DNA of 43,738 nucleotides, from the NCBI GenBank assembly GCA_903929355.1, contig CAIYUN010000031.1:1-43738 (forward strand), read 5' to 3'. This document shows, in pieces, positions 15,559 through 36,590 of the stretch. The position numbers and the translations under genes were made by a program. Each line of letters starts with the position of its first letter. Positions within the stretch are counted from its first letter, which is position 1. The DNA is from an uncultured Opitutaceae bacterium. GTDB taxonomy: Bacteria; Verrucomicrobiota; Verrucomicrobiia; Opitutales; Opitutaceae. The notes under the pieces were generated by a model, which had not been told where the DNA came from, did no database searches, and saw nothing but the letters and a program-made list of their open reading frames with translations.

Positions 15559-15618
15559 CCCAATGACGGTCCGGGGCCAAGGCACGCGACGGGGGCGTCG
15601 CGTACCCATGTGGGCCAC

Positions 15619-18345: not shown

Positions 18346-18682
18346 GGAGTTATAGGGTTGAAACTGCGGAACGGGCCAATGCTGCCGGTTTTCCGCCCCC
18401 GCGCAAGAAGCGGATGCCCCGTTTCAATCCGCGCCCTACCAGCTGCTGTTCTCGCGCCTGAACGAGCGCGAAGCGGCGGCTTGGGATCAGCAAATCGAAG
18501 GCGACGCGCAAAGCGGCCGGCTCGACGCCCTCGATGCGCGCCTGACGGAACGAGAGGGAGGTCAGTCCAAGGTGCCGCTCGATGAAATCCTCGACGACCC
18601 AAATTTTCTTGAGCGCCTGGCCGGCCTGACGAACCCAACGTCAGACTTTCAACCCGGGTGCCGTTGGAAATTTGTGCCCCCC
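18346..18682. other. intergenic space upstream of the GH78 gene
   Basis: The space holds the GH78 promoter region (right of 18346, read leftwards) and a plus-strand gene remnant at about 18395-18646. No -35/-10 pair stands out, and there is no Shine-Dalgarno match ahead of the GH78 ATG. Confidence 0.5.
18395..18646 (+). pseudogene. 5'-truncated small protein remnant, antitoxin-like
   Basis: The frame is open from 18362 but has no ATG, GTG or TTG before coding character begins. Translated, it contains APYQLLFSRLNEREAAAWDQ, QIEGDAQSGRLDALDARLTE and VPLDEILDDPNFLERLAGL. The pattern of WDxQIExDxxSGRLDAL followed by an acidic Leu-rich tail is like small proteins that often accompany RelE/HigB-type toxins. 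That resemblance is from memory of the pattern and is tentative. The frame then runs without a stop into the 3' end of the opposite-strand TPR gene, where the sequence loses sense. I read it as a decayed gene, not a functional one. Confidence 0.4.
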
Positions 18683-21463
18683 TCATTGCTTCCCCGCTGC
18701 CGCCAGGCGCGCGAGCGCGGCATGGGCGAAGAGATACTCGTTGTAATCCCGCTGGTTGGTGGCCACGGATTTTTGAAAAGCCTCGCGCGCGCCGGCCTGG
18801 TCGCCTTTGAGCAGGCGCATCTGGCCGGCAAAATACCAGGCCTCGCAGCGCTGGCCGGACACCGGCTCCTCGCCGCTCTTTTCCGCGGCGGCGAACAGGG
18901 CCGCCTCATCCCGCTGGCCGGCCAGAAACTGGCCGATGGTTTTCGCCCAGCCTTCTTTCCACCCACCCACGGTTTGGGCAAAATCGGCGGGCGCGGCTCC
19001 CTGTTTGAGCTGCAGCAGCTGGCGATAGAGGCGGTAATAAGTCGCGTCGGCCGGATTTAAGGCGATGGCTTGGTCATAATCCGCCAGCGCGCCCGCGGGG
19101 TCGCCCAAGAATTCCCTGACCATGGCGCGGGAGCTGTGGCTGCTCGCATCTTTTGGGGCGAGTTCGAGGGCTTGGTTGTAGTCCGCTAACGCGCCGGCGT
19201 AGTCGCCGGTCTGCTTCTTGACCGAACCGCGACCGGAGTAGGCTTCGACGTTTTTGGGATCGAGCTCCAAGGCGTGGGTGTAGTCCGCCAGCGCGCCGGC
19301 GTTATCGCCAGTCTGAAACTTGACAGAACCGCGACGGGCGTAGGCGTCCGCGTATCTGGGGTCGAGCTCCAGGGCACGGTTGTAGTCCGCCAGCGCGCCG
19401 GCGTAGTCGCCGGTCTGCGCCTTGACAGAACCGCGACCGAAGTAGGTGCCGTAGTTTTTGGGGTTGAGCTCCAGGGCGTGGGTGTAGTCCGCCAGCGCGC
19501 CGGCGAAATCAGTCATGTCCATTTTCACCATCGCGCGCATCCCCCAGGCCTTCACGTTGAGCGGGTCTAGCCCAATCGCTTGGGTGAAATCGGCGATGGC
19601 GCCGGCACCGTCGCCGGTCCGCGCCTTGACCTCACCGCGACCAGTGTAGGCGTTGGCGTTTTTGGGGTCGAGCTCCAGGACGCGGGTGTAGTCCGCCAGC
19701 GCGCCGGCGTGGTCGCCGGTCTGCGCTTTGACCGCACCGCGATTGGCGTAGGCCTCGGCGTTTTTGGTGCCGAGCTCCACGGCCTGATTGAGATCCGCTA
19801 GCGCGCCAGCGTAGTCACCAGTCCGCGCCTTGATCGCACCACGATAGGCGTAGGCGTCGGCGTTTTTGGGGTCGAACTCCAGGACGCGGGTGAAGTCCGC
19901 CAGGGCGCCAGCGTAATCAGCCTGCTGCATCTTCGCCGCAGCGCGCAAGAACCAGGCATCCACGGCGAGCGGGTCCATTTGGAGGGCCCGGGTGCAGTCC
20001 GCGATGGCGCCGGCGACATCCCCCGTGCCCAATTTCTCTTTGACGGCGTTCAGCATGATGGCCGTGCGGCTCAACCCGGTCTGCCGGACGACCGTCCAGT
20101 CCTGGTTTTGGGCCGCAGGGGGCGGGCTGGCGGTTCCGGCCGCCCCGCTGCCCGAGGGAGGGAGGGGACGCAGGTAGGCGACGCCATGTTTGCCGTCCAC
20201 CACCAGATCCATCCGCGCCAGCGCGGCGAGCCCGAGCACCCCGTCGAAATGACCCTGCGTATCCTCGTCATTGCCAAAGTTTCGCAACGGCACGTTCGTG
20301 AGCGTGAGCGCGCCCAGGGACAAATTGTCCGCCAGTGTCTCCTCCGCCTTCCATTCGCCAGCCACCCCATGGATGGTCACCTTGGTGGGCAAAGACGCGA
20401 GGGGATGGGCCGCGCGCCACTCTTTCCACCGGTCCATCGGCAAGGCCACGCCTTGAGAATCGCCCGTGTCCACCAGGAAGGTGCGGGTGGTGCCATCGGG
20501 AGAGGGTATTTCCAAAGTCAGGACGTCGTGGTGGTTGGCGCTGATCTTGACCTTCAACCAGCCGCTCGTGTCCGGCACCGGCGCGTCGTCCCCGGTGACG
20601 AGGGCGACGGTGCGGGGCGCGCCCATGAAAAGCAGCAGGTTGTCCTTCACCGCCGGCCAACCGACCATCAGGCCGGAGTTGTAGCCTGGCAGATTGAACG
20701 TGGCAACTTGCGCGGTGACGCTGGCCGCACCCACGGTCAGTTCGGCCGGGGCGGTCAGGACGATCTCGGGCGCGTTGGCGACCGGGTTGGGCGTCGGCGT
20801 GACCCGCAGCCCGAGGCGCCGCACCTCCTGGGTGGTGAGCAAGACGGCCAGGGAGCTCCCGGTGTCGAGGATCGCCCGCACCGGCTGCCCGTTGATGCTG
20901 GCCGAGGGAAAGACCATGCGGGGTTCGGAGACGGAGGCTGCCTGCCGGATGGCATCGGCCAGACTGGGGTCGAGTTTCAAGGCCTGGTTGAAATCGGCGG
21001 TGGCACCATCGAGGTCTCCTTTGTCATGCTTGACCCGACCGCGAGCGGCGTAGGCGGCGGCATCTTTGGGATCGAGTTCGATGGCACGGTTGAAGTCGGC
21101 GATGGCTCCATCGAGGTCCCCTTTGTTCCTCTTGACCTCCGCGCGGCCGGCATAGGCGTGGGCGGATTTCGGGTCGAGCTCGATGATCCGGCTGAAGTCC
21201 GCCAAGGCCCCGTCGAGATCGCCTTTGTCCTTCTGGGCATTGCCCCGGTTGCCGAGGGCGCGAACAAAATTGGGATCGAGTTTCAAGGCCTGGTTGAAAT
21301 CGGCGATGGCCCCATCGAGGTCCCCCTTGTCGCTCTTGGTCAGGCCCTGCTCCACGAGATCGTTGGGGGTGGCCTGCGCGTGCAGACGGGCCAGGCCACC
21401 CCCACCGAGGAGCAGAGCGGCGAGGAATGCGAGGTGAAGGATCGTTTTTATGGGGGCGGGCAC
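18683..21463 (-). CDS. secreted TPR protein with two retropepsin-like aspartic protease motifs
   Basis: The start is uncertain. GTG 21463 gives 926 residues with a signal peptide (PIKTILHLAFLAALLLGGG); ATG 21598 would add 45 residues of non-signal character. Four TPR units (35-170, GDLDGAIADFNQALKLDP type) precede a region with two DTG motifs: ILDTGSS at 198-204 and LVDTGDS at 330-336. Each is followed by lobe-like sequence; the second continues to GVLGLAALARMDLVVDG (408-424). About ten more TPRs fill the rest (roughly 465-810), nearly identical at DNA level over about 19040-20000 with a 102-base period, followed by a less regular C-terminal helical tail. DTG is the catalytic triplet of aspartic proteases. 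Function unknown; it sits between GH31 and GH78 on the same strand. Confidence 0.8.
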   Translation of the reverse strand: MPAPIKTILHLAFLAALLLGGGGLARLHAQATPNDLVEQGLTKSDKGDLDGAIADFNQALKLDPNFVRALGNRGNAQKDKGDLDGALADFSRIIELDPKSAHAYAGRAEVKRNKGDLDGAIADFNRAIELDPKDAAAYAARGRVKHDKGDLDGATADFNQALKLDPSLADAIRQAASVSEPRMVFPSASINGQPVRAILDTGSSLAVLLTTQEVRRLGLRVTPTPNPVANAPEIVLTAPAELTVGAASVTAQVATFNLPGYNSGLMVGWPAVKDNLLLFMGAPRTVALVTGDDAPVPDTSGWLKVKISANHHDVLTLEIPSPDGTTRTFLVDTGDSQGVALPMDRWKEWRAAHPLASLPTKVTIHGVAGEWKAEETLADNLSLGALTLTNVPLRNFGNDEDTQGHFDGVLGLAALARMDLVVDGKHGVAYLRPLPPSGSGAAGTASPPPAAQNQDWTVVRQTGLSRTAIMLNAVKEKLGTGDVAGAIADCTRALQMDPLAVDAWFLRAAAKMQQADYAGALADFTRVLEFDPKNADAYAYRGAIKARTGDYAGALADLNQAVELGTKNAEAYANRGAVKAQTGDHAGALADYTRVLELDPKNANAYTGRGEVKARTGDGAGAIADFTQAIGLDPLNVKAWGMRAMVKMDMTDFAGALADYTHALELNPKNYGTYFGRGSVKAQTGDYAGALADYNRALELDPRYADAYARRGSVKFQTGDNAGALADYTHALELDPKNVEAYSGRGSVKKQTGDYAGALADYNQALELAPKDASSHSSRAMVREFLGDPAGALADYDQAIALNPADATYYRLYRQLLQLKQGAAPADFAQTVGGWKEGWAKTIGQFLAGQRDEAALFAAAEKSGEEPVSGQRCEAWYFAGQMRLLKGDQAGAREAFQKSVATNQRDYNEYLFAHAALARLAAAGKQ

Positions 21464-21796
21464 GACGGGGGGGCTGTTACCGGTATCGGGCTGCAAAACG
21501 CTTAAAAGCCATTGGCGCGCTGTCAAACTCCTCCCCAGCCCCGGCAGGATCAGCCCGCCTCCGCTGCGGGGGGCACCCGGCGCCACAGGCGCAATCAACG
21601 CGATCCAGCCGAGACTGGCCGCCGCCCGCAGCGTGCTGCTCTCGATTACCCGGCTTCAATCGGACTGCACTGCTTGTGCCGCCATCTTGTCGCGCTGGAG
21701 CAAAGCAAAGGCGGAAGATCACTTCGTGAGTGCCGGTGCAAGGGCGAGACGGAAGACCGAAGGGTGCTTGATGATTTCAAACTGTCCCACCACCGG
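21464..21796. other. intergenic space between GH31 and TPR genes
   Basis: If the TPR gene starts at GTG 21463, these 333 bases hold no gene I can support; with the upstream ATG the gap is 198 bases. I see no T-tailed hairpin for the GH31 gene and no repeat array. Its composition is ordinary for the genome. Confidence 0.4.
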
Positions 21797-24667
21797 CTAT
21801 GGCGCAATCCGGACGTCCACGGCCGCGCCGGTGTAGGTCACCGTCTCGTCGGGTGTGAGGGTGGGCGAATAGGCGACCGCCTTGTTCTTGGACACCACCA
21901 CCACTTGGAAGGTCCGCCGGGCGAGCATGCCGGTGAACGAACCGGTGCGTGCCCCGATGGTCAGTGTGCGGGTCGCATCGTTCCAGCGGATCGGGATGCG
22001 GGCGAACTGGCCTTTCTCGTAGCCGTTGCTCAGCCCGTCGTCCTCGTAGAGGGAATACGTTCCGTCGGCGCCCGCATAGACTTGGAGCGTGACCGGGTCG
22101 GCGGGTGTTTCGCCGGTATATTGGATGGCCGGGCCGAAGGGGATGATCGCGCCGGCCCGGATGTGCAGCGGCATCGCGTCGAAGGGGGCCGGGGCGTCGA
22201 GCGTCTGCCCGCCCGCCAACGCCGTCCCGCTCCAGAAGTCATACCAGCCACCCGGCGTGGCCGGCAGATAGACGGAGCGCGAGCGCGCCAGGTAGGTGGT
22301 GACCGGGCTGACGAGGAACGCCGGACCGAACATGAACTGGTCGGTGAGGTCGCGCGCCTTGGCATCGGTGCGGAAATCCATCACCAGCGGGCGCATGATC
22401 GTGCCGCCGTCCTGCGTCACCGCGCCCGCCATCGAGTAGATGTAGGGCTGCAGCGCATACCGCAGCCGGTCAAACTTGAGTTCCGCCTGGTAGGCCGGGT
22501 TGGTCTCGCCGCCCATCGCCCACATCTCACGGGCGCGCAGTTCGCCATGCGCCCGGAGGAAGGGGGTGAAGGCGCTGAACTCAAACCAGCGCGCATTGAG
22601 CTCATACCACTCCGCGAGGTTGGCGGGCGTGATGTTCTGGGCCGAAAACCGAGTCTCCATGGTGTAACCCCCAGTGTCCATCGTCCAGTAGGGGTTGCCC
22701 GAGATGCTGAAGCCCAGCCCGGCCGTGATCTGCTTGGCAAAGGTCATCCAGGTCGAAGTGATGTCGCCCGACCAAGTGACGGCCGAGTAGCGTTGCTGCC
22801 CGGCGAACCCCGAGCGGGTCAGGATGAAAACGCGCTGGTCCGGTGCGGTCGCGCGCTGGCCCTCGTAGATGCCCCGGCTGTTTTCCAACGCGTAGCCGTT
22901 GAGCACCCGCGAGGGGCTGCCGAGCGCGGTCGAGCCGATGAAGTGCTTGGTCGTCGCCAGGGTGGGAGGAGACGGCTGCACCACGTCGGGCTCGCTCGCG
23001 TCCATCCACCATGCGTCCACGCCTTTTTGGAACAGCCCGGCGTTGATCTGTTTCCAGAACAGATCACGCGCCCCGGCGTTGAACGCATCGTAGAAGGTGT
23101 AGTTGAAACCCCGGGCCACCCAGTCCTTGATGTTCTCCTTGAGGGTGGGTTCGTAGAGGTAGCCGGCCGCCTGCATGGCCTTGAAGTTCTCGTTGCCGAC
23201 ATAGTCGCCGGAGTAGAACTTGCCCCAGACGGAGATCATGAGGTTCGCGTGCTGGTCATGGATCGCCTTGATCCAGCCGACGGGATCGGGAAAACGGGCC
23301 GGGTCGAACTGGTGCGAGCCCCAGGCGTTCTGGGGCCAATACTGCCAGTCCTGCACGATATTGTCGAAGGGGATGCTGCGGGAGCGGTAGCCGTTCACCA
23401 CATCGAGACTCTGCTGCGCGCGCTCATAGCGCTGATAGGACTGCCACAGGCCGAACGCCCAGCGCGGCAGCATGGTGGCCGCGCCGGTCAGGTGCCGGTA
23501 GCCCGCCACCACCTGGTCGAGCTCCGGGCCGTAGACAAAATAGTAGTCCACGCCGTCGCCGACCTCCGACCACAGGGAAATGTCACCAGCTGAGTCGGCG
23601 GGCGCAGGGGTCTTCCAGCGCAGCTGCATCGTGCTCACCTGGTCGCCGCCCGACTCCACCCTGATGGCGTAGTGGTTGCCGGCTGAGAGGTGAACTTTGA
23701 CCTGGTCATACTCCGTCAGCCAGCCTTGGCGCCAGCGGTTGAAAACCAGTTTGCCGTCGAGCCACATTTTGAGGCCGCCATTGGAGTAGGTCTGGAACTG
23801 GTAATCGCCGGTCGTGGGCGCGACCACCTCGCCGACCCAGCGCGTGGTGCCCGCGCCGCCGCGCCCACCCCCGCCACCTCGCGGAGGCGCCCCACGGGTG
23901 AGATCTGCAGTCACCCGCGCACCTTGCAGCACGTCGGGCGCGTTCGCCGTGAAGGTGCCGGTGGTCAGCCCGCCGGCCTGGCGGGAGGCATCCAACAGAT
24001 TGGCGGCCGGGATCGCCTCAAACGGGCGCAGGTCGCCGAAGCGGCTGTAGCCGGGATTGTCCCACAGGATGCCGAAGCCACGGCTGGAGACCAGAAACGG
24101 AACGACAACCACGCTGTTGCGCTGCCAAAGATCGAGATCGCAACCCTTGATATCCATGATCCCAAGCTGCTGCTGACCCAGGCCGTGCAACGACTCTTCG
24201 GGTGCGCCGGCCCAATGCTGCGCAGCGTGGAAGGTTTGTTCGCCGTCGACGTTGGCGGGATCAAGGGAGCGACCGCCGGCTTTTTCGGCGAGCACCACCT
24301 GGCCGGTGGCGTCCAGAAATGTCACTGCGCCCGTGACCAGGTCGACGCGGGCCTTGCAGCGGACCGTGGAGAGGGTGGCCGTCCCGCCGCCGGTGGTGAG
24401 ATCCCAATCGGGCACCGGAGCCGACCGAGGCACAACGATCAAACTCGGCCGGAAGGCGGCAAACGCATGATCCTTGGCGTAGGCCACGCGAATGGTGTTG
24501 TCCGCACAGGCGGTCAGACGAAGGAAGCCGTCGCCAACGGGCAGGATGATCCCATCGGCTAGTCTTTCGACGGCCGGCGGCGGCGGCGAAACCGCAGCCA
24601 GACCGGATGGGGCGAATGGCAGGGAAAAACCAAAGGCGAGCCCGAGGGCCAGTGTGCGGGTAAACAT
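21797..24667 (-). CDS. GH31 family alpha-glycosidase with PA14 insert, secreted (alpha-xylosidase-like)
   Basis: The ATG at 24667 starts 956 residues with a signal peptide (MFTRTLALGLAFGFSLPFA). A GH31 N-terminal beta-sandwich is interrupted by a PA14-like domain at about 225-355 (TRWVGEVVAPTTGDYQFQTY, SNGGLKMWLDGKLVFNRW). The barrel follows: FGLWQSYQRY (405-414), IVQDWQYWP (437-445), nucleophile Asp556 in AWWMDASEPD, and acid/base Asp635 in TWSGDITSTW. The C-terminal beta domain ends the chain. A PA14 insert in this place is known in Cellvibrio Xyl31A, an alpha-xylosidase acting on xyloglucan oligosaccharides, so that activity is my first guess; alpha-glucosidase remains possible. A Gly/Arg-rich stretch, PPRGGGGGRGGAG (261-273), lies at the edge of the insert. 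Confidence 0.92.
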   Translation of the reverse strand: MFTRTLALGLAFGFSLPFAPSGLAAVSPPPPAVERLADGIILPVGDGFLRLTACADNTIRVAYAKDHAFAAFRPSLIVVPRSAPVPDWDLTTGGGTATLSTVRCKARVDLVTGAVTFLDATGQVVLAEKAGGRSLDPANVDGEQTFHAAQHWAGAPEESLHGLGQQQLGIMDIKGCDLDLWQRNSVVVVPFLVSSRGFGILWDNPGYSRFGDLRPFEAIPAANLLDASRQAGGLTTGTFTANAPDVLQGARVTADLTRGAPPRGGGGGRGGAGTTRWVGEVVAPTTGDYQFQTYSNGGLKMWLDGKLVFNRWRQGWLTEYDQVKVHLSAGNHYAIRVESGGDQVSTMQLRWKTPAPADSAGDISLWSEVGDGVDYYFVYGPELDQVVAGYRHLTGAATMLPRWAFGLWQSYQRYERAQQSLDVVNGYRSRSIPFDNIVQDWQYWPQNAWGSHQFDPARFPDPVGWIKAIHDQHANLMISVWGKFYSGDYVGNENFKAMQAAGYLYEPTLKENIKDWVARGFNYTFYDAFNAGARDLFWKQINAGLFQKGVDAWWMDASEPDVVQPSPPTLATTKHFIGSTALGSPSRVLNGYALENSRGIYEGQRATAPDQRVFILTRSGFAGQQRYSAVTWSGDITSTWMTFAKQITAGLGFSISGNPYWTMDTGGYTMETRFSAQNITPANLAEWYELNARWFEFSAFTPFLRAHGELRAREMWAMGGETNPAYQAELKFDRLRYALQPYIYSMAGAVTQDGGTIMRPLVMDFRTDAKARDLTDQFMFGPAFLVSPVTTYLARSRSVYLPATPGGWYDFWSGTALAGGQTLDAPAPFDAMPLHIRAGAIIPFGPAIQYTGETPADPVTLQVYAGADGTYSLYEDDGLSNGYEKGQFARIPIRWNDATRTLTIGARTGSFTGMLARRTFQVVVVSKNKAVAYSPTLTPDETVTYTGAAVDVRIAP

Positions 24668-24679
24668 GGGGGGGAGGGG

Positions 24680-24704
24680 TTGAAATCCGACACCTTGATT
24701 TCAA
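24680..24704. promoter_or_regulatory. perfect 8-bp inverted repeat ahead of GH31
   Basis: TTGAAATC (24680-24687) and GATTTCAA (24697-24704) are separated by nine bases, 12 bases upstream of the GH31 ATG. The dyad could be an operator or a hairpin in the leader. No regulator gene is adjacent. Confidence 0.35.
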
Positions 24705-24878
24705 ACCGCCCGCCCGCCAACGCAAGGGAATCCTGCGCAGAGGAGGGGACGCCGGAACCGTGCGCCTGATGCGCCCCAGGTTTGGCGGTGGCCGATGACG
24801 GGAGATCACGTTGAGCCTCCAACGTCCAAGGGACGAAGTGGTGCGCCTGCCTGGTCGCGTCCGACCTTCGATCCGGGT

Positions 24879-26504
24879 TCAGGCGGCCACGGCGGGGTGG
24901 CCGGGGGCTTCGGGTTTCGCCCCCGGCGGTTGGGCGGGGAGACGGATGATAATGGTCGTGCCGCGGCCGGGCTCGGATTCCACGTCCACTTCGCCGCCCA
25001 GCCGGCCGACGTTGGTCTTGACCACGTCCATCCCGTAGCCGCGGCCGGAAATGTCGGTGATCTCGGTCGCCGTCGAGAAGCCGGGGGCAAAGATCAGGCG
25101 ACGGATCTCGGCAGGGGTCATCGCCGCCGCCTCCGCCGGGCTGATCAAGCCTTTTTCCACCGCCTTGCCGGCGATGCGGCCAAGGTCCATCCCGCGGCCA
25201 TCGTCCCGGATTTCGATCCGGACAAACCCGGCGTCCAGCGACGCCCGAAGTTGAATCGTCCCGCCCGCCAGCTTGCCTTGCTTTTGGCGCTCGGCGGGGG
25301 ACTCAAGGCCGTGGTCGGCGCTGTTGCGGATCAGGTGGGCGAGCGGGTCGGCCAGGCCCTCGATGAGCGGGCGGGTGACCTCGATCTCGTCGCCGACGGT
25401 CTCAAGCCGGATCTCCTTGCCCAGCTTTTGGCCGAGCTCATACACCACCCGGGGATAGCGGCCAAAGAGCGTGCCGACCGGCTGGCAGCGCACATGGGCC
25501 ACCGTGGTCTGCAGTCCGGTGGTGATGGCGTCGAGCTGACCGATGGCCGCGCCGAGCGCCGCGTCGGCCGTGGTGCCGTCGGTGAGCCGGACCAGCTCGT
25601 CGCGCCCCCGGGCCAGATCGCCGACGAGGGAGGACAGCGTCTCGATGAGGCTGACGGGCACCCGGACCATCTCCTCCGGTTTGAACCGCGTGTCAGGCGC
25701 GCTCACCTGCTCGAGGACCGGCTGCTTGTGCTCCAGGGTGGGCTGGCAGACGAGCCAGTCCTCCAGAAACGCCGTCTCGACCGGCGTCAGCTGTCCGGCG
25801 GGGATGCCGAAGGTGCCGACCACGAGGTCGGACTCCATCGCCGTGGCAAAGAGGATCGAGCAGACGAGGTCGGCCGGCGCGGTGTCGTCGAGCCCCCCGA
25901 CCGACCCGAGGTCGAGGGCGGTGTCGATCAGCGTGCCGAGCTCGGCGGCCTCGCGGAGGTAGTGCAAGGGGGTCTGGCCGGCGGCCTCGATGTCGGCCTG
26001 GAGGTGGAGCTGGACAATGTAGAGGTGATGCCCCTGCCCGAGCGCGTTCCGGATGAGTTCGGCATCCAGCTTAAAGGCGTTGAGGTTGGCGGGAACATCC
26101 GGTGCCGGCCGCGCGACGGTGACCGCCGGCTCATGGCGCAGGAGCCCCTGGAGGACGGCGCGCTCGGCCCCCGACGAAACGGTCTCCGACTGGCCGGGGT
26201 CGGCAACCATGAGCCGCAATTTGTCCGTCGCAGCGAGGAGGTCGTGCACGAGCGCGGGGCTGGACTCCATCTTGCCGTCGCGCAGCAGGGCGAGCACACT
26301 TTCCATCACATGGGCGAGCCCGATGACGGCGGTGAGCCCGAAGAAACCCGCAGTGCCCTTGACGCTGTGCACCGCCCGGAAGAGGCGGTGGAGGCGGGCG
26401 GGGTCGGGCCCGCCGGTCCGCAGATCGATGAGATCGGCCTCGAGGCTGGCGAGATGGTCGCCGGCCTCGACGACGAAGCGCCCAAGCATCTCGCTGTGGT
26501 CCAT
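24879..26504 (-). CDS. CheA-like histidine kinase lacking the CheW (P5) domain
   Basis: The ATG at 26504 gives 541 residues. An Hpt (P1) domain carries the phospho-accepting His46 in FRAVHSVKGTAGFFGL. A poorly conserved middle part (about 140-240) may be a P2-like docking domain. A dimerisation helix pair (about 278-340, VPVSLIETLSSLVGDLARGR) precedes the CheA-type ATPase: N-box HLIRNSADHGLE (390-401), G1 DDGRGMD (434-440), FAPGFSTATEITDISGRGYG (472-491) and GMDVVKTNVGRLGG. The chain ends 20 residues after the ATPase, so the CheW-like P5 domain that couples CheA to receptors is missing. The following 210 bases do not encode one. Two bases separate it from the STAS gene. It is probably the kinase that feeds the receiver of 26855-28438. 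Confidence 0.9.
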   Translation of the reverse strand: MDHSEMLGRFVVEAGDHLASLEADLIDLRTGGPDPARLHRLFRAVHSVKGTAGFFGLTAVIGLAHVMESVLALLRDGKMESSPALVHDLLAATDKLRLMVADPGQSETVSSGAERAVLQGLLRHEPAVTVARPAPDVPANLNAFKLDAELIRNALGQGHHLYIVQLHLQADIEAAGQTPLHYLREAAELGTLIDTALDLGSVGGLDDTAPADLVCSILFATAMESDLVVGTFGIPAGQLTPVETAFLEDWLVCQPTLEHKQPVLEQVSAPDTRFKPEEMVRVPVSLIETLSSLVGDLARGRDELVRLTDGTTADAALGAAIGQLDAITTGLQTTVAHVRCQPVGTLFGRYPRVVYELGQKLGKEIRLETVGDEIEVTRPLIEGLADPLAHLIRNSADHGLESPAERQKQGKLAGGTIQLRASLDAGFVRIEIRDDGRGMDLGRIAGKAVEKGLISPAEAAAMTPAEIRRLIFAPGFSTATEITDISGRGYGMDVVKTNVGRLGGEVDVESEPGRGTTIIIRLPAQPPGAKPEAPGHPAVAA

Positions 26505-26506
26505 GC

Positions 26507-26839
26507 TCAGGTCGCGGCGAGGACCGGCGTGGGTGCCGGGGTGAGGCCAAACCGCTCGGCCAGTTTCAGCGCGGTAAAGAGACGCTGGATGTCGGGCACC
26601 GGGTTTTCCACGCGGAAGGTGACCTGGCGGCGTTCGCATTCGCGAAAGAGGGCGACCAGCAGGTTCAGCCCCTGGGAGTCGATGAGGTTGCTCAGGCCGA
26701 GGTCGGCGATCACCCCACCGGCCATGGGATAGGCCCCGAGATGCCCGAGCAGGGCGACCCGGAGCTCGGCGACGTTGGTGGACAGGATGTCGCCCGGGAA
26801 AACCAGGCGGAGGGCGTTGTTGTGGAACTGGGTTTGCAT
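26507..26839 (-). CDS. STAS-domain anti-sigma factor antagonist
   Basis: The 110-residue protein is a single STAS domain. The phosphorylation loop reads DLGLSNLIDSQGLNLLVALF, with Ser55 after Asp54 at the position that partner kinases modify in SpoIIAA/RsbV-type proteins. The preceding strand is GGVIADLG, and the C-terminal helix DIQRLFTALKLAERFGL is typical. It starts 15 bases after the REC-PP2C-HATPase gene and ends two bases before the CheA-like gene. Both a possible serine kinase and the matching phosphatase are in the neighbouring protein, so it should cycle between phosphorylated and free forms. What the free form binds (an anti-sigma factor, a diguanylate cyclase, or something else) is not in the window. 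Confidence 0.9.
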   Translation of the reverse strand: MQTQFHNNALRLVFPGDILSTNVAELRVALLGHLGAYPMAGGVIADLGLSNLIDSQGLNLLVALFRECERRQVTFRVENPVPDIQRLFTALKLAERFGLTPAPTPVLAAT

Positions 26840-26854
26840 GGCGGGGGGCGGTGG

Positions 26855-28438
26855 TTAGGCGGCGGCGAGATCAAATTCCATCGTGAGCTCGGCGCCGTTG
26901 CGGGCCTCGCGGGTGGAGGTGGTGAGGAAATGAATCATCTCCAGACCGAGGGAGACGTGGCCGGTGTCGGCGAACAGGTCGGGCAGCCCGGCCGGGGCGC
27001 TCAGCACCTGCGACCGCCCCGGACCGGGATCGGAGACGGTGATCTCGAGCCGGCGCTGGCGCGGGCGAAGGACCGCGGTCAGATGGGCGACCGCGTCCCG
27101 CAGACCGGCGCAGCCGTGTTTGAGGGCGTTGATCAGGGCCTCGCGGACACAGAGGAGAACGGAGGTCAGGCAACTGGAGGGAAGGTCGGGGATGGCGTGC
27201 AGCAGGTTGCGCTGGAAACGTTCCTGCACGGCATCAATCCCGGGACCGGAGTCGCCCGGCAGGGCCTCGTGGTAGAGCGGCAACGCGTCGTCGGGCTGCT
27301 CCCCGTCCGGTGGGAACCACCGGAACCGGGCCACGAGCACGTCGTCGGCGAAATTGCTGGTGCGGCGGAAGGCGGGCAGGTCGGCCGGAAGGGTGAGGAG
27401 CAGCCGCGCGGCCACCGCATGGGGCGTGAGACCCAGCCGCTTGGCCTGGTCGAGGAGGCCGTCGCTCCACAGGCAGCACGAACCGGTGTCGCCGAGCGGG
27501 ACGGTGGCCACCCCCGGGTTGAGCGTCTCGAACCAGCCGAGCGGGCTGCTCTGGCCGGCCCAGGCCTCCGGGTTCCGGCCGGGCACATGGCAGTGGAGGG
27601 CCGGGCAGCCGCAGTTGAGGATGCGCAGTTCGCGGGCCACGAGATCCAGATGGACGAAAATCGCGCTCAAGGAGGAGGAAACCTCGCCGGCCCCGTTGCC
27701 GGACCATTCGACGAGTAGAAAGCGGTTGCACGCCTCGGCGATCTGCAACGGCGCGATCCCGACCGTTTGCATGCCCTTGACCATGCCCTGGAAGTAGGCG
27801 GCGATGAACCCCTCCAGCAGACCGTGGCCGGAGACATCGCCCAGCACGAGTTGAACGGAACCCGGGGCCGGGTGGAAAACGCTGACAAAGTCACCCCCGG
27901 CCTCGTGGATCGGGCAAATGCGGGTGGTGAGCTCGCAGGCGAGCTGACCGGGCAGAGAGGACCGGTCCGGCAGGTTCGGGGCGAGACGCTCCTGGATGGA
28001 GCAGACATCGGCCAGGCGGCGCTCGGCGGAGTGGAGGGAGCGCTGCCGGCGGGTCAGGCCCACCGCCCGCTCCACGGCACCGAGCACGACCTTGGCGTTG
28101 CACGGTTTTTCCAAAAAGTCGCAAACCCCGCCCTTGAGCGAGGCTGAGAGGGTGGTCCGCTCCGAGTCACTGGTGTTGATGATGGTGGCAAGCGTCGAAT
28201 CGAGCAGCCGAATCTGCTCCAGCAATTCCAAGCCGTTCAGGACCGGCATCAGGTAATCGGTCAGCACGGCATCGAATTCCGGGGCTCCCGCCGAGCGCAG
28301 CCGGTCAAGCGCCTGGGCACCATCGGTCGCGGTTTCGATCGCGAAGCCCCCCCGCCCGACAATGGTGCGAAGGAGCATCAGCGTGGTCGGATCATCGTCC
28401 ACGAGCAGAACGCGGCCGGGAGAAGAGGAAGGTGGCAT
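26855..28438 (-). CDS. response regulator with PP2C phosphatase and RsbW-like kinase domains (HsbR-like)
   Basis: The ATG at 28438 (MPPSSSPGRVLLVDDD) gives 527 residues; the frame is open upstream only because it crosses repeat arrays. REC (about 8-125) has the acidic cluster VDDD, phospho-acceptor Asp61 in LTDYLMP, and Lys111. A linker helix leads to a SpoIIE/RsbU-type PP2C domain with metal-binding residues in GGDF (181-184), GDVSGHG (200-206), SDGLLD (325-330) and FADD (363-366). An HATPase_c domain of the RsbW type follows (about 425-525), with Glu433 and Asn437 in REALINALKHG and SDPGPG (469-474). Its second glycine box is weak. The REC-PP2C-HATPase order is that of Pseudomonas HsbR. Its target should be the adjacent STAS protein. 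Confidence 0.9.
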   Translation of the reverse strand: MPPSSSPGRVLLVDDDPTTLMLLRTIVGRGGFAIETATDGAQALDRLRSAGAPEFDAVLTDYLMPVLNGLELLEQIRLLDSTLATIINTSDSERTTLSASLKGGVCDFLEKPCNAKVVLGAVERAVGLTRRQRSLHSAERRLADVCSIQERLAPNLPDRSSLPGQLACELTTRICPIHEAGGDFVSVFHPAPGSVQLVLGDVSGHGLLEGFIAAYFQGMVKGMQTVGIAPLQIAEACNRFLLVEWSGNGAGEVSSSLSAIFVHLDLVARELRILNCGCPALHCHVPGRNPEAWAGQSSPLGWFETLNPGVATVPLGDTGSCCLWSDGLLDQAKRLGLTPHAVAARLLLTLPADLPAFRRTSNFADDVLVARFRWFPPDGEQPDDALPLYHEALPGDSGPGIDAVQERFQRNLLHAIPDLPSSCLTSVLLCVREALINALKHGCAGLRDAVAHLTAVLRPRQRRLEITVSDPGPGRSQVLSAPAGLPDLFADTGHVSLGLEMIHFLTTSTREARNGAELTMEFDLAAA

Positions 28439-28489
28439 AAGGTGTTTTGGCCCGGGTCTGTTTATCGGCTTCCCCCGGAAAAATCTTAA

Positions 28490-28513
28490 CGCAAAGACGC
28501 AAAGACGCGGAGC
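28490..28513. repeat. octamer array (CGCAAAGA type)
   Basis: Two perfect CGCAAAGA units (28490-28505) are followed by CGCGGAGC. The same family forms the inverted array at 37863-37938. Confidence 0.7.
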
Positions 28514-28539
28514 AAGGAGAAAGCGATGGGGGAGGGTTG

Positions 28540-28574
28540 GATTTTGGATTGCGGATTGCGGATTGCGGATTGCG
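28540..28574. repeat. heptamer array (GATTGCG)
   Basis: Four perfect GATTGCG units at 28547-28574 are preceded by the diverged unit GATTTTG. Confidence 0.8.
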
Positions 28575-28634
28575 GAAGAATTTACCGCGTACCGAGCGAA
28601 GCGACCGCCTGTCATGAACGCCAAGGGACTCGGA

Positions 28635-28704
28635 TCTGGCTTCTGACATCTGACATCTGACATCTGACATCTGACATCTGACATCTGGCTTCTGACATCT
28701 GGCT
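28635..28704. repeat. heptamer array (TCTGACA), ten units
   Basis: Ten uninterrupted 7-base units: seven are TCTGACA and three are the variant TCTGGCT (28635-28641, 28684-28690, 28698-28704). The regular placing of the variant implies copying in blocks. Confidence 0.85.
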
Positions 28705-28911
28705 TCTTGGTTGGCCCCCCAGCGGGCGGATGGGGGGAACCCCGGGATTTGGGAGGAACGATCCCCCGGGTGGGACCGGGGAATCGTTTTAGGGCTCAAG
28801 TGGCACGGCGGCTGGCCGATGGGTGTGGCTGGTGCCAATCATGCAAAAACGTTCCATTCATTCCCCTGGTGGCGGCCACCGGGGCGTGGAGGTCTCCACC
28901 CGGGAGTTCCC

Positions 28912-31764
28912 ATGACCTTGGACGCCCCCATGGTTCCTCCGGTGGAAATCTCGGCATTGGTGCCGGGGGTGCTTTTTCAATTCCGGCTGAGACCCGATGG
29001 CACATGGTGTTTTCCCCACGTGAGCGGCGGGGTCCGGGAGGCGTTCCGGCTGGAGCCGGAGCAAGCGCAGGAGGAGGCCGCCGCCGTGTTCGCCGTGGTG
29101 CACCCGGACGACCTGGACCAACTGCTGGCCGCAATGCACCAGTCCGCGCATGACCTGCACCCGTGGGTGATGGAATTTCGCGTGCGCTTCCCTGACGGCG
29201 GGGAGCATTGGTGGCGCGGCCGGGCCAACCCGGAACGCGAGCCGGACGGCGCAACCCTCTGGCACGGCAATCTGCTGGAGGTCACCGAGAGCAAGCTCAT
29301 CGAGCAGACGCTCAGGGAGAGCGTGCTGCGCTGGCAGTTTGCCCTCGAGGGCGCGGGCGAGGGGGTGTGGGACTGGCGGCCCGAGGCGCGGCATTTGTAT
29401 CTGTCGCGCCGTTGGAAGGCGCTTTTCGGCCACGAGGAACCCGAGATCGGGAATCGGCCCGAGGAATGGTCGGAGCGCGTCCACCCCGAGGACTGGCCCG
29501 CCGTGCAGACCCGGTTGCGCGAACATCTGGCCGGCCGGAGCCCGTCCTACCAGAGCGAGCACCGGATGCGGTGCCGCGACGGCGGTTACAAATGGGTCTA
29601 TGACCGCGGCCGCGTGGTGGAGCGCGGCCCGGACGGGCGCGGGCTCCGGATGATCGGGACCATCTCTGACATCACCGAGAAAAAACAGGCGGAGCTCGCC
29701 CTGCAAAAATCCAAAAGGGAGCTGGAATCCAGCAACCTACGCCTGGAGGAGGCCATCCTCCACTCCAACGAACTGGCCCGTGAGGCCGCCGCCGCCAACC
29801 AGGCCAAGAGCCTGTTCCTCGCCAACATGAGCCACGAGATCCGCACGCCGATGAACGGGGTCATCGGCATGACCGGCCTCCTGCTGGACACGTCGCTGAA
29901 CCCGGAGCAACGCACCTACGCCGAAACGGTGCGCAGCAGCGCCGAGGGCCTGATGCAGCTCATCAACGACATCCTGGACTTCTCCAAGATCGAAGCCGGC
30001 CGCCTCCAGCTTGAGGAGCTCGATTTTGACCTCGCCGAAGTCCTGGACGAGACCCTGGAGATGCTGGCCATCCGCGCCCATGAGCGGGGGCTCGACCTGG
30101 ACGGTCAGATCGCCCCCGGCACCCCGTGCCAGGTGGCCGGCGACCCGAGCCGGTTGCGGCAGGTACTGGTCAACCTCATCGGCAACGCCATCAAGTTCAC
30201 CGAGAGCGGCGAAGTGCTGGTGGGGATCGCCCGGCGCGGGACCGAAGGCCCGCAGGCGACCTTCGTCTTTACCGTGAGCGACACCGGCATCGGCATTCCC
30301 GCGGACCGGGTGCCCGCGTTGTTCCAACCGTTCACGCAGGCCGACGCCTCAACCACCCGCAAATACGGCGGCACCGGCCTCGGTCTCGCCATCTCCCGCC
30401 AGATCGTGGAGGCCATGCAGGGCACGATCAGCGTGCGCAGCGACCCCGGTCGATGCACGGTATTCACATTTGAGGTCCAACTGAAAGTCCGCCCGGTCCC
30501 GCCGGTCCCGCCGGCCACCCCGCTCGCGGGCCAGCGGCTATTTGTGGTCGAGCGCCATGCGGCCACCCGCGAACACCTGACGGCGCTCCTCACGGCGGCC
30601 GGAGCACGGGTGGAGACCGGCCCCCTCGTCGCAGACCTGCCCCGGCGGCTGCAGGGCAGGACGGCCCATGGGATTGACGGCGTGCTGCTGGACCGCCGCG
30701 CGCCGGACGGCGACGAACTGCTGGCGGCGGCGCAGAATGCCCGTCGGCCGGACGGGCAGACCGGCGTGCCCGTCATCCTGCTTACCGATCTCCGGCACCG
30801 CGTGCCGAAGGACAAGCCGGGCGTGAGCGGAGTCGTCTGCAAGCCGCTCCGGCGCGGGACCCTCCTGCCGATGCTCAAACGGGTGCTCGAGGTGGCGGAC
30901 AGCCGGTCACCCCTGGCGCCGGCCGACGATTTTTCCGCGTGGTCGGCCTCCGGGAACTCGCGCTGGCGCCTGCTGCTCGCCGAGGACAACACCGTCAACC
31001 AGCGCGTGGCGGTGGCGATCCTGAACCGCCTGGGCTACCGGACCGACGTGGTGGCCAACGGGCGCGAGGCGGTGACGGCGCTCAGCCGGGTGCCCTACGA
31101 CTTGGTGTTGATGGACTGCCAGATGCCGGAGATGGACGGTTACGACGCCACCCGGGCCATCCGCGCCGAGGACTCCGCCGCGCTCAACCGGACGCTGCCC
31201 ATCATCGCCGTGACCGCGAATGTCCTCAAGGGCGACAGTGAGCGCTGCCTCGCGGCGGGCATGAGCGACTACCTGCCCAAACCCATCGAGGCCAAGGCCC
31301 TCGCGGCGATGCTGGCCCGGCACCTCAAACCGGGACCGGCCCAGCTGAAAGCCCCCGGAATTTTGGAATGGGACGAGTTCCTCGGCCGCCTCGGGGGCGA
31401 CCAAGCGGTGGCCCGCGCGTTGCTGGCCGAATTCTGCACGGAGGCGCCCCGCCACCTGGCGGGCGCCCGGGCCGCGCTCGGGGACCGCGACCGGCCCACC
31501 GCGCGCCAGACGCTCCAGCGACTGGCGGAGGATGCCGCCAGTTTCATGGCCACAACCCTGGCGGCCACCGCGACCGAAGCCGCCGCCGCCGTGGCCGGGG
31601 GCGGCGACCGGGGTTCCGGCCTGACCCGCGTGGCGGAGGCGCTCGACGCTTTCCTTGCCATCGCAGCCAAATTGCTCCCTCATCACTCCCCGTCATGTGT
31701 CACACCGCCTGATGTCACCCGAGCTTACAGCCTTCCCGCCGTTGGTGGTGGTGGTCAACGATGA
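28912..31764 (+). CDS. hybrid sensor histidine kinase with two receivers and a degenerate Hpt
   Basis: ATG 28912 has GGAG five bases upstream, giving 950 residues without membrane segments. A PAS-like domain (about 10-125) and a PAS/PAC pair (140-258) precede a coiled coil and HisKA with His308 in [17 protein letters not shown]. HATPase_c follows, with [10 protein letters not shown] (421-430), DTGIGIP (457-463) and [10 protein letters not shown] (486-495). The first receiver (541-660) keeps Asp594 and Lys644 but has only Glu547 in the acidic pocket. The second (685-805) is canonical, with Asp735 and Lys790. The C-terminal helices (820-925) look like an Hpt whose phospho-His position is Gln869. 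It probably senses a cytoplasmic signal and is divergent from the partner-switch operon. Confidence 0.9.
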
Positions 31765-34700
31765 CGAAGGCCAGCGGCGACCGCTGTGCGCGCTGCTCAC
31801 CCATCACGGCCTGAGGGTTTCGGCGCACGGTTCGGTCAAGGCGGCGCTGCAGGCGATGGCGGTGGAGACGCCGGCGCTCGTGGTCACCGACCTGTGTCTG
31901 CCGGAAATCGACGGCATTCGGTTCTGCCGGATGCTGCGCTCGTCGGCCCACCGGAGCTTCAACGACACCCCGATCATGGTGGCCTCGTCAACCTATGCCG
32001 GCGCCGACAGTGAGACGATCATGGTCGAGCTGGGGGCCAACGACTTCCTGCGGCTGCCGGTGGCGCCGGAAACCTTCCTGCGGCGCGTGGACCGCCTGCT
32101 CCACCACGCCCAGCCCGCGGCTGAGCCGGGGGTGCTGCTGGTCTCCACCCTGGTGGAGGAGATCGCCGGGGTGCGCGAGGCCTTTGCCGCCAATGGTTTC
32201 GGGGTGAGCTGCGCCGCCACCCCGGAGGAGGCCGAGGCGCGACTCGCCGCCGGCGGCTGCGATGTGGCGGTGCTCGACCTGGACCTGCCCGGCGTCGACC
32301 AGGCCTGGCTGGCGAACCTGTCCACCCGCTGGCCGGAGGCCGCCTTTTTCACGCTCACCGCCCAAGGCGAGCCGGCCATCGCGGTCCGGTCCATGCAGGC
32401 GGGCGCCAGCGCCCACCTGCGGCGACCGTTCGCGCCGGAGTACCTGTGCAGCCTGTGCGAGATGGCGCGGCGAGAAAAATCCCTCCTCCGCGTGCAAGAC
32501 CTGCTCGAACGCCGGACCCGCGAGCTGCGCCGGTCCGAGCAGGAGTTGCAGGCCGTGGTCGAATCGACCGGCCAGGCGTTTCTGCTCATCGAGCCGGACG
32601 GCCGGGTGGAGCTGTTCAACCAGGCTGCGGCCCGGATGGCCCAGGAGGTGGTCGGCCGCCCCTTGCGGCTGGGGCAGACGCTGGTGGAGATGCTCGGCCT
32701 CGAATTTGCCCTGGCCACGCTCTGCAACGTCAAGGCCGCGTTTGCCGGCGAGGCCGTGCACCATGAGGTGGAGCTGCATGATTGCGACGGCCGGGCGCAC
32801 TGGTACGCGGTCACCTATGCGCCCGTCCCCGCCCGGGACGGCGTGATCAAACGCGTCTGCTTCAACGCCCAGGACATCACCCAGCGGCGGCTGGCGGAGG
32901 ACGCCGTGCGCGAGAGCGAGGCCCGGTTCCGCGGCATGGCCGACAACGCCCCCGTGCTCATCTGGATGACCGGGCCGGGCCCCGGCTGCCACTACTTCAA
33001 CCAAGGCTGGCTCAATTTCACCGGCCGCAGCATGGAGCAGGAGGTGGGCGACGGCTGGGCGGAGGGGGTCCATCCCGACGACCAGGCCGCGTGCGCGCGG
33101 CTCCGCGCCGACGCCTTTGTCCACCGCCGTCCGATCACCCATGAATACCGCCTGCGGCACCACTCGGGTGAATACCGCTGGATGACGGACACCGGCGTGC
33201 CCCGGTTTGCGCCGGGGGGCGGCTTTCTCGGCTACATCGGCGCGGTCATCGACATCCAGGCCCGCATTGAGGCCGAAGTCGCGCTGCGCACGAACAAGCG
33301 CCGGCTCCAGGCCCTATTTGACCACTCCCACGACGCCATCCTGCTGGCGGACGACGAGGGGCGTTACGTCGACGCCAACCCCGCCGCCTGCCGGCTGCTC
33401 GGCTACGTCCGCGAGGAGGTGCTCGCGCTGCAGGTCCAGCAGGTCCTCGCGGTCTCCGACCCGGCCTGGGCCGGGGGGGCCTGGCGCGAGTTTCTCGCCA
33501 AGGGCCGGACCACGGGCGAGACGGCACTGCGGCGCAAGGACGGCAGCACCGTCGTCGTGGACTACAGCGCCATCGCCAACATTCTGCCGGGCCTGCACCT
33601 GTCCATCCTGCGCGACATCACCGAGCGCCGCGTCCTGCAGGCCCAGCTGCTCCGACAGCAACGGCTCGAGAGCGTGGGCCGGCTGGCCAGCGGCGTCGCC
33701 CACGACCTCAACAACATCCTGACCCCGATCCTGATGGTGCCGGCAATGCTCCGCCCGTACCTGCGGGAAACCAACGCCCTGATGCTGCTCGAAACCGTGG
33801 AAAACGGCGCCCGGCGGGGCTCGATCATTGTGCGCCAGCTCCTCTCGTTTGCGCGCGGCATGCCCGGCGAGAAGCGCCGCATCGACCTGCGGCAGGTCGT
33901 GCGCGACGCCCTGGTCATCATCCAGGAGACGTTTCCCAAAAACATCAAGGTGGACTGGCACCAGCCCGCCGCCGAGATGCCCGTCAACGGCGACAGCACG
34001 CAGTTGAGCCAGATCATCATCAACCTCGCGATCAACGGCAGCGACGCCATGGACAAGGGTGGCCGCCTCGCGCTTTCGCTCGAGGTGGTGGAACTCGACG
34101 CCGAAGAGGCCCGCCAGAACCCGGACGCCCACCCCGGGGCCTACGTGGTCCTGACCGTCGCCGACCACGGCCGCGGCATCGTGCCCGAGCACCTGGACAA
34201 GATTTTCGACCCATTCTTCACGACCAAGCCGTTCGGCCAGGGCAGCGGCCTCGGACTTTCCACCGTGCTCGGCATCGTCCGCGGCCACGAAGGGTTTGTC
34301 CGCGTGACGAGCCGGGTGGGTACGGGCACGCTGTTCAAGGTTTTCATCCCCCTCCACACCGCCCCGGATCGCCCGGCCGCCTCCGCCAATGGCAAACCCC
34401 GGCTGCCTTCGGGCCTCGGCCGCATGGTCCTGGTCGTGGATGACGAGGCGGCGGTGCGGGAGATTGTGCGCATGATTCTGGCGCAGGAAGGTTATCAGGT
34501 GATGTGCGCGGACGGGGCCGACGCGGCGCTCTCGCAGATCCAGGCCGTCGGCGGACGGGTTGACCTGGTCCTGACCGACTTGGCCATGCCCGGCGTGTCC
34601 GGTGCCAAGCTGGTCGAGCGCCTGGCCCACGCCCACCCCGGCCTGCCCGTGCTCGTGATGACCGGCAACGACATGGACGTGAACCTGCCCCCGGAGCTCA

Positions 34701-34822
34701 AGACCCTGACCAAGGGGGTCCTGGCCAAACCCTTCCCCTCCGAAAACCTTCTGGAGAAGGTTGCGCAGGTCATGGCCGGCCGCGGGAACACGCACGATCC
34801 CTTTCCCTCGCCACCGGGATAG
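31712..34822 (+). CDS. multi-receiver PAS hybrid histidine kinase
   Basis: The ATG at 31712 ([20 protein letters not shown]) lies inside the previous gene, a 53-base overlap in another frame that suggests translational coupling. Two N-terminal receivers come first: Asp60 in VVTDLCLPEIDG, and a second one with Asp189 in VLDLDLPG that has lost the usual acidic pair. Three PAS domains follow (about 272-392, 400-518, 528-640), with PAC-type ends such as AQDITQRRLAE and LRDITERRVLQ. HisKA has His664 in GRLASGVAHDLNNILTPIL. HATPase_c has NLAINGSDAM (771-780) and GQGSGLGLSTVLGIV (842-856). A C-terminal receiver has Asp956 in VLTDLAMPG. No transmembrane segment is visible in its 1036 residues. The kinase core resembles NtrB-like, metabolism-linked hybrid kinases. 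Confidence 0.9.
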   Translation: MSPELTAFPPLVVVVNDDEGQRRPLCALLTHHGLRVSAHGSVKAALQAMAVETPALVVTDLCLPEIDGIRFCRMLRSSAHRSFNDTPIMVASSTYAGADSETIMVELGANDFLRLPVAPETFLRRVDRLLHHAQPAAEPGVLLVSTLVEEIAGVREAFAANGFGVSCAATPEEAEARLAAGGCDVAVLDLDLPGVDQAWLANLSTRWPEAAFFTLTAQGEPAIAVRSMQAGASAHLRRPFAPEYLCSLCEMARREKSLLRVQDLLERRTRELRRSEQELQAVVESTGQAFLLIEPDGRVELFNQAAARMAQEVVGRPLRLGQTLVEMLGLEFALATLCNVKAAFAGEAVHHEVELHDCDGRAHWYAVTYAPVPARDGVIKRVCFNAQDITQRRLAEDAVRESEARFRGMADNAPVLIWMTGPGPGCHYFNQGWLNFTGRSMEQEVGDGWAEGVHPDDQAACARLRADAFVHRRPITHEYRLRHHSGEYRWMTDTGVPRFAPGGGFLGYIGAVIDIQARIEAEVALRTNKRRLQALFDHSHDAILLADDEGRYVDANPAACRLLGYVREEVLALQVQQVLAVSDPAWAGGAWREFLAKGRTTGETALRRKDGSTVVVDYSAIANILPGLHLSILRDITERRVLQAQLLRQQRLESVGRLASGVAHDLNNILTPILMVPAMLRPYLRETNALMLLETVENGARRGSIIVRQLLSFARGMPGEKRRIDLRQVVRDALVIIQETFPKNIKVDWHQPAAEMPVNGDSTQLSQIIINLAINGSDAMDKGGRLALSLEVVELDAEEARQNPDAHPGAYVVLTVADHGRGIVPEHLDKIFDPFFTTKPFGQGSGLGLSTVLGIVRGHEGFVRVTSRVGTGTLFKVFIPLHTAPDRPAASANGKPRLPSGLGRMVLVVDDEAAVREIVRMILAQEGYQVMCADGADAALSQIQAVGGRVDLVLTDLAMPGVSGAKLVERLAHAHPGLPVLVMTGNDMDVNLPPELKTLTKGVLAKPFPSENLLEKVAQVMAGRGNTHDPFPSPPG

Positions 34823-36553: not shown

Positions 36554-36590
36554 GCGAGGCTCCGCCGCGCTCAATTTCTTATTTTTTATT
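36551..36590 (+). terminator. possible intrinsic terminator after zwf
   Basis: TGAGCG (36551-36556, including the stop codon) pairs with CGCTCA (36568-36573) around an 11-base loop, followed by a T-rich stretch ending in TATTTTTTATT. The stem is short, and the T-rich tail partly belongs to a heptamer array, so the call is weak. Confidence 0.35.

Follow-up and report, generated by a model that had tools for sequence, protein, structure and literature searches.

CheA kinases have been linked to anti-sigma partner switches before. In Shewanella oneidensis, the che1 operon encodes CheA1 together with CrsR and CrsA (PMC9855816), and CrsR holds the sigma factor RpoS by its own anti-sigma domain; HsbR of Pseudomonas aeruginosa also binds RpoS (PMC6482189). 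According to the same source, three hybrid kinases of P. aeruginosa phosphorylate HsbR via HptB, and the antagonist HsbA, which is phosphorylated on Ser56, also binds FlgM and HsbD. Stage-1 F7 clusters of proteobacteria include anti-sigma antagonists and a serine phosphatase (PMC7184735). Chemosensory gene orders of Campylobacterota include STAS genes, and in this group a REC-PP2C-kinase protein was proposed to act through STAS on a chemoreceptor (PMC9239204; this and the other papers cited here are represented by excerpts). The combination of a CheA with a partner switch is therefore already published in the form of Shewanella che1 with CrsR and CrsA. Here we describe an array-free variant of it in a stretch of 43,738 nucleotides (the window) from an uncultured Opitutaceae bacterium (assembly GCA_903929355.1, contig CAIYUN010000031.1, positions 1 to 43,738). 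The variant is a three-gene module of a response regulator, a STAS protein, and a CheA-derived kinase without the CheW-like domain P5. A literature search that covered few subscription papers returned no title on a CheA that lacks the CheW domain and is coupled to a STAS switch. The locus as a whole is best explained as an array-free partner-switch output module, a reading to which we assign a probability of about one half.

A CheA-derived kinase without P5

The three genes lie on the minus strand and are transcribed in the order response regulator (positions 26855 to 28438), STAS protein (26507 to 26839), and kinase (24879 to 26504), with intergenic gaps of 15 and 2 bases. These open reading frames (ORFs), their coordinates, strand, and gaps, as well as Asp61 of the regulator, Ser55 of the STAS protein, and His46 of the kinase, are as claimed in the original prediction, which had been made from the DNA alone. 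Pfam and the gene layout also bore out its three architectures, the operon, and the likeness to HsbR and HsbA. Its description of a "full CheA-like kinase" did not survive, as the P5/CheW domain is missing.

By Pfam and alignments, the kinase (541 amino acids) consists of a P1/Hpt domain, a middle domain, a weak P3, and P4. Pfam matched Hpt at 1.4e-16 and HATPase_c at 3.8e-18, and the P4 motifs are kept relative to Escherichia coli CheA (alignment to 6s1k). The dimerization domain P3 can be aligned (alignment A4) and is under low constraint; its H-kinase_dim match falls under the Pfam cut-off (0.0018; 19.1 bits versus 23). The protein ends 16 residues past P4. No P5/CheW match was found in it by Pfam, nor with a P5 profile that was derived from relatives and run over all frames of at least 40 amino acids in window positions 24001 to 29000. 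The counterpart in G028, a genome from another genus of the family, likewise gave no P5 by either route (genomes, contigs, and loci carry our working numbers with the prefixes G, C, and L; the window's own genome is G000).

As a control, we examined 43 other distinct CheA genes of the family, and in 42 the P5 profile matched in the same frame. These genes came from a census of 252 family genomes in which up to five candidates were scored per genome and 88 genomes had a match at E ≤ 1e-60. The check took in 28 loci besides the two P5-less ones, plus the listed P3-P4 matches with frames below 700 amino acids, for a total of 47 loci (four genes were present twice). Unlisted matches, longer frames without a locus, and the short N-terminal-only frames G843:C103 and G844:C28:16511 lie outside it; a further frame of that short kind, G838:C3, had no P3-P4 match in 3.5 kb. 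The single exception among the 43, in G048, is a frame (L272, 187-1941) that stops at the first P5 residues. No P5 was found in the 4 kb around it and no STAS or regulator match in the 20 kb examined, and we classed it as a truncated, module-free CheA rather than counting it as a third P5-less kinase of this kind.

The absence of P5 is most simply read as a derived loss. The kinase is CheA-derived, but without P5 it should not be classified as a CheA. CheA and its CheW domain are regarded as an inseparable pair: in a survey of 13,673 CheA sequences, CheW was present in 100%, and HATPase plus CheW served as the distinguishing pair for CheA homologs (PMC10782961, in the portion available); a CheA without P5 may have been missed by the survey's own selection of sequences. 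The middle domain (approximately residues 140 to 260) has a ferredoxin-like strand-helix order in its structural model (predicted local distance difference test [pLDDT], 83.1), from which we make no claim of a P2 domain: a fold search gave 630 PDB matches at E ≤ 10 and none at E ≤ 0.001. The whole-kinase model (pLDDT, 69.9; predicted template modeling score [pTM], 0.43) was used for secondary structure only.

The response regulator (527 amino acids) has the order REC, SpoIIE/PP2C phosphatase, HATPase_c_2, with Pfam matches of 1.1e-20 (Response_reg), 4.5e-16, and 3.7e-11, respectively. Its HATPase_c_2 domain is predicted to be an RsbW-type serine kinase and anti-sigma domain. Residues with catalytic roles in these families are conserved: the Asp pair at 14/15, D61, and K111 of the receiver are identical in G028, and the PP2C aspartates (D183, D201, D326, and D365/366) and the HATPase N-box (E433 and N437) are unchanged there. 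The STAS protein (110 amino acids; Pfam STAS, 1.6e-9) is of the anti-sigma-factor-antagonist type by Pfam and profile A3. Its candidate phospho-acceptor, Ser55, is invariant in all seven STAS rows of alignment A3 and aligns with the Ser of SpoIIAA and TM1442 when the profile is compared with solved structures. Likewise, His46 of the kinase falls in the alignment on the residue taken as the phospho-His of E. coli CheA P1. We take the aligned residues of E. coli CheA, SpoIIAA, and TM1442 to be the phosphorylated ones in those proteins.

Descent and conservation of the module

To place the module among its relatives, we used STAS profile A3. Among 372 genomes of the order, 25 had a match at E ≤ 1e-8, and among 387 genomes of the phylum, 7 had one at 1e-12; both counts include the window's own genome. 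Within 1.5 kb on each side of 29 order-level STAS loci, there was a CheA match in 11 and a regulator match in 19; both were present in three, one of which was the window. Longer stretches around relatives hold operons of the chemosensory array type. In G865, from the same family, the order is regulator-CheW-STAS-CheA-MCP-MCP-CheB-CheR (MCP, methyl-accepting chemotaxis protein). Four genomes (G063, G104, G119, and G132) have CheW-STAS-CheA-CheB-CheR-REC, with a regulator nearby in G062 and G063, and G284 has CheW-STAS-CheA-MCP. In G533, which is related at the phylum level only, the order is MCP-regulator-STAS-CheA-CheW. Most gene names in these operons rest on single-sequence searches. Pfam was run on ten of the CheAs and showed two CheW stretches in every one and a C-terminal REC in nine.

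In a first tree of the CheA core (21 rows), the window and G028 kinases were sisters (100/100) and joined the array-type CheA of G284 (100/100). For a second tree (19 rows), six rows were taken out (G132, G074, G025, G047, the CheA of contig C56, and G002) and four brought in (G865, G787, G838, and G841). There, the P5-less pair joined G865 at 94/92, just below the mark for strong support, and this group lay within a clade of seven CheAs from the family (100/100). In a tree of the regulators (15 rows), that of G865 was sister to the pair from G000 and G028 (100/100). Long rows were G002, the C56 CheA, and G074 in the first CheA tree, G596 in the second, and G533, G181, and G062 in the regulator tree. 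Because the P5-less pair is nested among array-type CheAs and relatives carry array operons, the window operon appears to have been stripped of its array parts. The module very probably descends from a chemosensory array-type operon, and on the simplest reading, P5, REC, CheW, MCP, CheB, and CheR would have been lost before the two P5-less kinases diverged. Compared with its array-type relatives, the window kinase lacks P5, the second CheW-like stretch, and the C-terminal REC.

A second kind of STAS, with a DSVGLN-like motif, directly follows a REC-PP2C-HATPase gene at six loci of the same family (L033, L034, L035, L036, L037, and L038). A second CheA type is near it in five of the six; two CheW stretches were found by Pfam in that of L033, the only one checked.

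The module is part of a larger unit. G028 has the regulator, STAS protein, and kinase together with two divergent hybrid kinases (here HK1 and HK2) in the same gene order, with identities of 75% for the regulator, 67% for the STAS protein, 60% for the kinase, 64% for HK1, and 76% for HK2. Alignment of the window with 20 kb of G028 gave two alignable pieces, 24993-28417 and 28945-34735. None of six flanking frames in G028, taken from a simple gene caller, matched a flanking gene of the window; one of the six overlaps the end of HK2. The three genes plus HK1 and HK2 are a conserved block shared by two genera. The gene order is thus not unique to this strain (uniqueness had been named in the original prediction as an outcome that would tell against it), and the order regulator-STAS-CheA recurs in the array-type operon of G533.

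Ratios of nonsynonymous to synonymous differences per site (pN/pS) against G028 were 0.28 for the regulator, 0.48 for the STAS protein, and 0.49 for the kinase. Within the kinase, they were 0.40 for P1, 0.40 for P4, 0.51 for the middle domain, and 0.93 for P3. The module genes look to be under selection, P3 least; P1, the middle domain, and P4 remained constrained. These values bear on the possibility that what remains here is a chemosensory operon in decay, whose kinase no longer has a function. Such decay would fit the loss of P5, REC, CheW, MCP, CheB, and CheR, the patchy distribution, and the truncated, module-free CheA of G048. However, the frames are open in two genera, the motifs are intact, per-gene pN/pS is 0.28 to 0.49, and the block is conserved while its flanks are unmatched, so that we regard decay as very improbable.

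The P5-less form of the module is rare and patchy. A first search of 95 genomes gave a STAS match (E ≤ 0.001) in 16, the window's own included, and the nearest was that of G028. A scan with alignment A1, which included a generic receiver peptide, kept 80 loci, mostly REC-only and none above 44% identity, and yielded no close relatives.

Possible phosphate supply and output

HK1 and HK2 lie on the plus strand, divergent from the module. HK1 (ORF 28711 to 31764; probable start, from comparison with G028, at the ATG at 28912) reads PAS-PAS-HisKA-HATPase-REC followed by a degenerate Hpt. HK2 (ORF 31655 to 34822; probable start at an ATG near 31712) has N-terminal RECs, PAS domains, HisKA-HATPase, and a C-terminal REC by Pfam. 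The region between the divergent units (28439 to 28911) is 473 bases long in the window versus 239 in G028, taking the aligned ATGs as the HK1 starts, and carries short tandem arrays within 28489-28701 (ACGCAAAG x2.5, GGATTGC x4.4, and ATCTGAC x9.7).

Neither hybrid kinase appears to have a functional Hpt of its own. The C-terminal Hpt-like domain of HK1 is below the Pfam cut-off and lacks the phosphorylation-site His in both the window and G028 copies; HK2 terminates in a REC and gave no match to Hpt. Across the genome, Hpt matched four times: in P1 of the window kinase, in the CheA on C56, in a stand-alone protein on C77, and in the His-less domain of HK1. HK1 and HK2 are thus encoded beside one of the three Hpts of the genome that have a His. 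Given this arrangement and the HptB precedent, we tentatively favor a relay from HK1 and HK2 through P1 to the regulator. The original prediction had placed the phosphate source in the kinase of the same operon; it had left out HK1 and HK2, which are candidates within the conserved block.

We propose the following mechanism. His46 on P1 would be phosphorylated by the kinase's own P4, free of receptor control, and/or from the C-terminal RECs of HK1 and HK2, and P1 would hand the phosphate to Asp61 of the regulator. In keeping with the logic of the original prediction, the phosphorylated REC likely decides between phosphatase and kinase action on the STAS serine, moving the regulator from its HATPase, which would phosphorylate Ser55, to its PP2C domain, which would dephosphorylate it. 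The state of the STAS protein would then set whether the HATPase domain, acting as an anti-sigma factor as in CrsR and HsbR, retains or releases a sigma factor. By analogy, the predicted module should work as a partner switch of the CrsR/HsbR type. The more specific picture, in which a CheA has left the array to become an Hpt hub between HK1/HK2 and the partner switch, possibly with a second kinase input of its own, is one we hold with slightly less confidence than the relay.

Alternatively, the kinase could be autonomous, with P4 phosphorylating P1 either constitutively or as directed by the middle domain, HK1 and HK2 being separate neighbors, and the whole a simple CheA-to-REC switch of the kind put forward in the original prediction. 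The P4 motifs that align with E. coli CheA, the P4 pN/pS of 0.40, the 2- and 15-base gaps within one operon, and the module-free relatives of HK1 and HK2 in G786 and G790 are all consistent with this. Against it, a kinase that lacks P5 has no known input, P3 shows weak conservation (pN/pS of 0.93, under the Pfam cut-off), and HK1 and HK2 are inside the conserved block while the tested flanking frames are outside. We consider autonomy rather unlikely.

A number of observations weigh against the array-free module with its HK1/HK2 relay. A STAS match was found in none of five other genomes of the same genus (completeness of 70 to 98%), and among the matches examined from the 252 family genomes, a P5-less kinase with the module occurs only in G000 and G028; the former is a draft in 91 contigs, 96% complete. 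Relatives of HK1 and HK2 are paired in G786 and G790 (50 to 51% identity for HK1 and 60 to 64% for the C-terminal half of HK2) with no regulator, STAS, or kinase match beside them in 14 and 16 kb, and the HK1 relatives there also lack the Hpt His. In addition, the stand-alone Hpt on C77, with an intact His, could serve HK1 and HK2 instead. For Shewanella itself, the link from Che1 to RpoS is worded only as "could be" in the available part of the source (PMC9855816).

We had considered that HK1 lost its Hpt His because the P1 of the CheA took over. This was rejected: G786 and G790, in which no module was found in the stretches examined, lack the His as well, and its loss is thus not caused by pairing with the window kinase. 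In both genomes, the HK1 relative with the His-less Hpt-like end is followed by the HK2 relative and then by an MCP (G790, L298 4996-11078; G786, L299 5098-11189).

The genome does encode an array elsewhere. Both CheW and both MCP matches fall on contig C56, which encodes two MCPs, a CheW, and a CheA; PF01584 and PF00015 (CheW and MCP) had no match on the window contig or on the G028 contig, C111. Loss of the array from the whole genome was accordingly rejected. The P5-less kinase might still read the C56 array, for example, if its P1 were cross-phosphorylated by the C56 CheA or if mixed dimers formed via P3. A cooperating split pair, CheA3 and CheA4, is described in Rhodobacter (PMC10782961, excerpted), but both of these keep their CheW domains. 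Moreover, the window kinase has lost P5 and its P3 has diverged, and the C56 CheA is distant from it in the tree (on a long branch). Coupling to the C56 array is improbable.

As for the output of the array-free module, a sigma factor is a nearly even prospect, judged by analogy. Sigma70_r2 matched 15 times in the genome, including a group-2 factor (360 amino acids; regions 1.2, 2, 3, and 4) and a 265-amino-acid factor, which by our reading of their domains would be RpoS-like and FliA-like, respectively. The RpoS-like factor is the most likely sigma target and the FliA-like factor the second. No anti-sigma gene is adjacent to the module, a lack that was remarked on in the original prediction and is to be expected, since the HATPase of CrsR and HsbR itself binds RpoS (PMC6482189). 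The window also encodes an ECF-type (extracytoplasmic function) sigma factor (218-805, minus strand), approximately 24 kb off the module.

The STAS protein could instead act on a target other than a regulator-held sigma factor, such as a diguanylate cyclase, the way HsbA acts on HsbD, or an FlgM-like anti-sigma factor. HsbA sets a precedent in binding both FlgM and HsbD (PMC6482189), but none of the five block proteins is of the FlgM-like or diguanylate cyclase type, and no whole-genome search was made for either. We judge such a target unlikely, though less so than autonomy of the kinase. PF01740 matched four times in the genome, and only the window match is in a short frame (115 amino acids; the others have 643, 772, and 251). 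Of 11 HATPase_c_2 matches, the window regulator was the best; six of the other ten are in frames that match a query histidine kinase, and the remaining four have no more than a receiver match in the vicinity.

Neighboring genes and comparison with known systems

Beside the module, polysaccharide-degradation genes occupy positions 8912-24667: a beta-helix/pectate-lyase-like protein, two GH3 proteins, an alpha-L-rhamnosidase, and a GH31 protein with a PA14 domain. In the 20 kb of G028 examined, nothing matched the GH31 protein at 1e-30. Positions 18683-21598 encode a 971-amino-acid protein rich in TPR repeats, in which a retropepsin-like aspartyl protease domain is embedded. Farther away, the window carries a DUF1552 (HXXSHH) protein and a 1000-amino-acid PSD/PSCyt protein of the planctomycete type (3193-8746, plus strand), and a glucose-6-phosphate dehydrogenase followed by a protein with an OpcA assembly domain (35012-37746).

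A conserved and constrained CheA without P5 would show that the kinase can be retained after its array is gone. If the proposed relay is true, the kinase would be a CheA-derived stand-in for HptB and would mark a route from a chemosensory pathway to an ordinary phosphorelay. This raises the question of whether the P1-P4 core of a CheA can be rewired to hybrid kinases and what the benefit of keeping its own ATPase might be. The locus also bears on the roles of STAS and REC-PP2C genes in chemosensory operons.

Several described systems share parts of this arrangement. Stage-1 F7 clusters have the antagonist and phosphatase genes but a full chemoreceptor array (PMC7184735). The array operon of G865 (L287) is alike in sequence, with identities of 49% for the regulator, 44% for the STAS protein, and 52 to 54% for the CheA (P1-middle and P3-P4). 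It differs in having array genes and a CheA with a REC and two CheW stretches, and there was no HK1 or HK2 match in 18 kb.

In the Borrelia burgdorferi cluster cheW2-bb0566-cheA1-cheB2-bb0569-cheY2, bb0566 presumably encodes a STAS protein. CheA1 of this cluster is dispensable for chemotaxis in vitro and affects RpoS stability; it differs from the window kinase in lying within a che cluster, where the available part of the source knows of no anti-sigma factor (PMC10703414).

The original prediction had pointed to HptB-HsbR-HsbA as its precedent. That likeness holds, but not as the sole closest one, because CheA1-CrsR-CrsA of Shewanella che1 is equally a precedent (PMC9855816). The comparison with CrsR and HsbR was one of domain makeup. 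As in Che1, which belongs to the F7 class, the gene for a kinase of CheA descent accompanies those for a REC-PP2C-anti-sigma regulator and a STAS-type antagonist, and control of RpoS has been proposed for Che1. Unlike the window locus, Che1 keeps CheW, MCPs, CheR, CheD, CheB, and CheY, whereas the window kinase has no P5. The locus resembles HptB-HsbR-HsbA of P. aeruginosa in its hybrid kinases that need an external Hpt, its REC-PP2C-HATPase regulator, and its antagonist with a putative phospho-acceptor Ser (PMC6482189, in the portion available). HptB is a stand-alone Hpt; in contrast, the Hpt of the window is a P1 fused to a P3-P4 ATPase and encoded in the same operon as the regulator and STAS protein, with the hybrid kinases, from which phosphate may flow, lying next to that operon.

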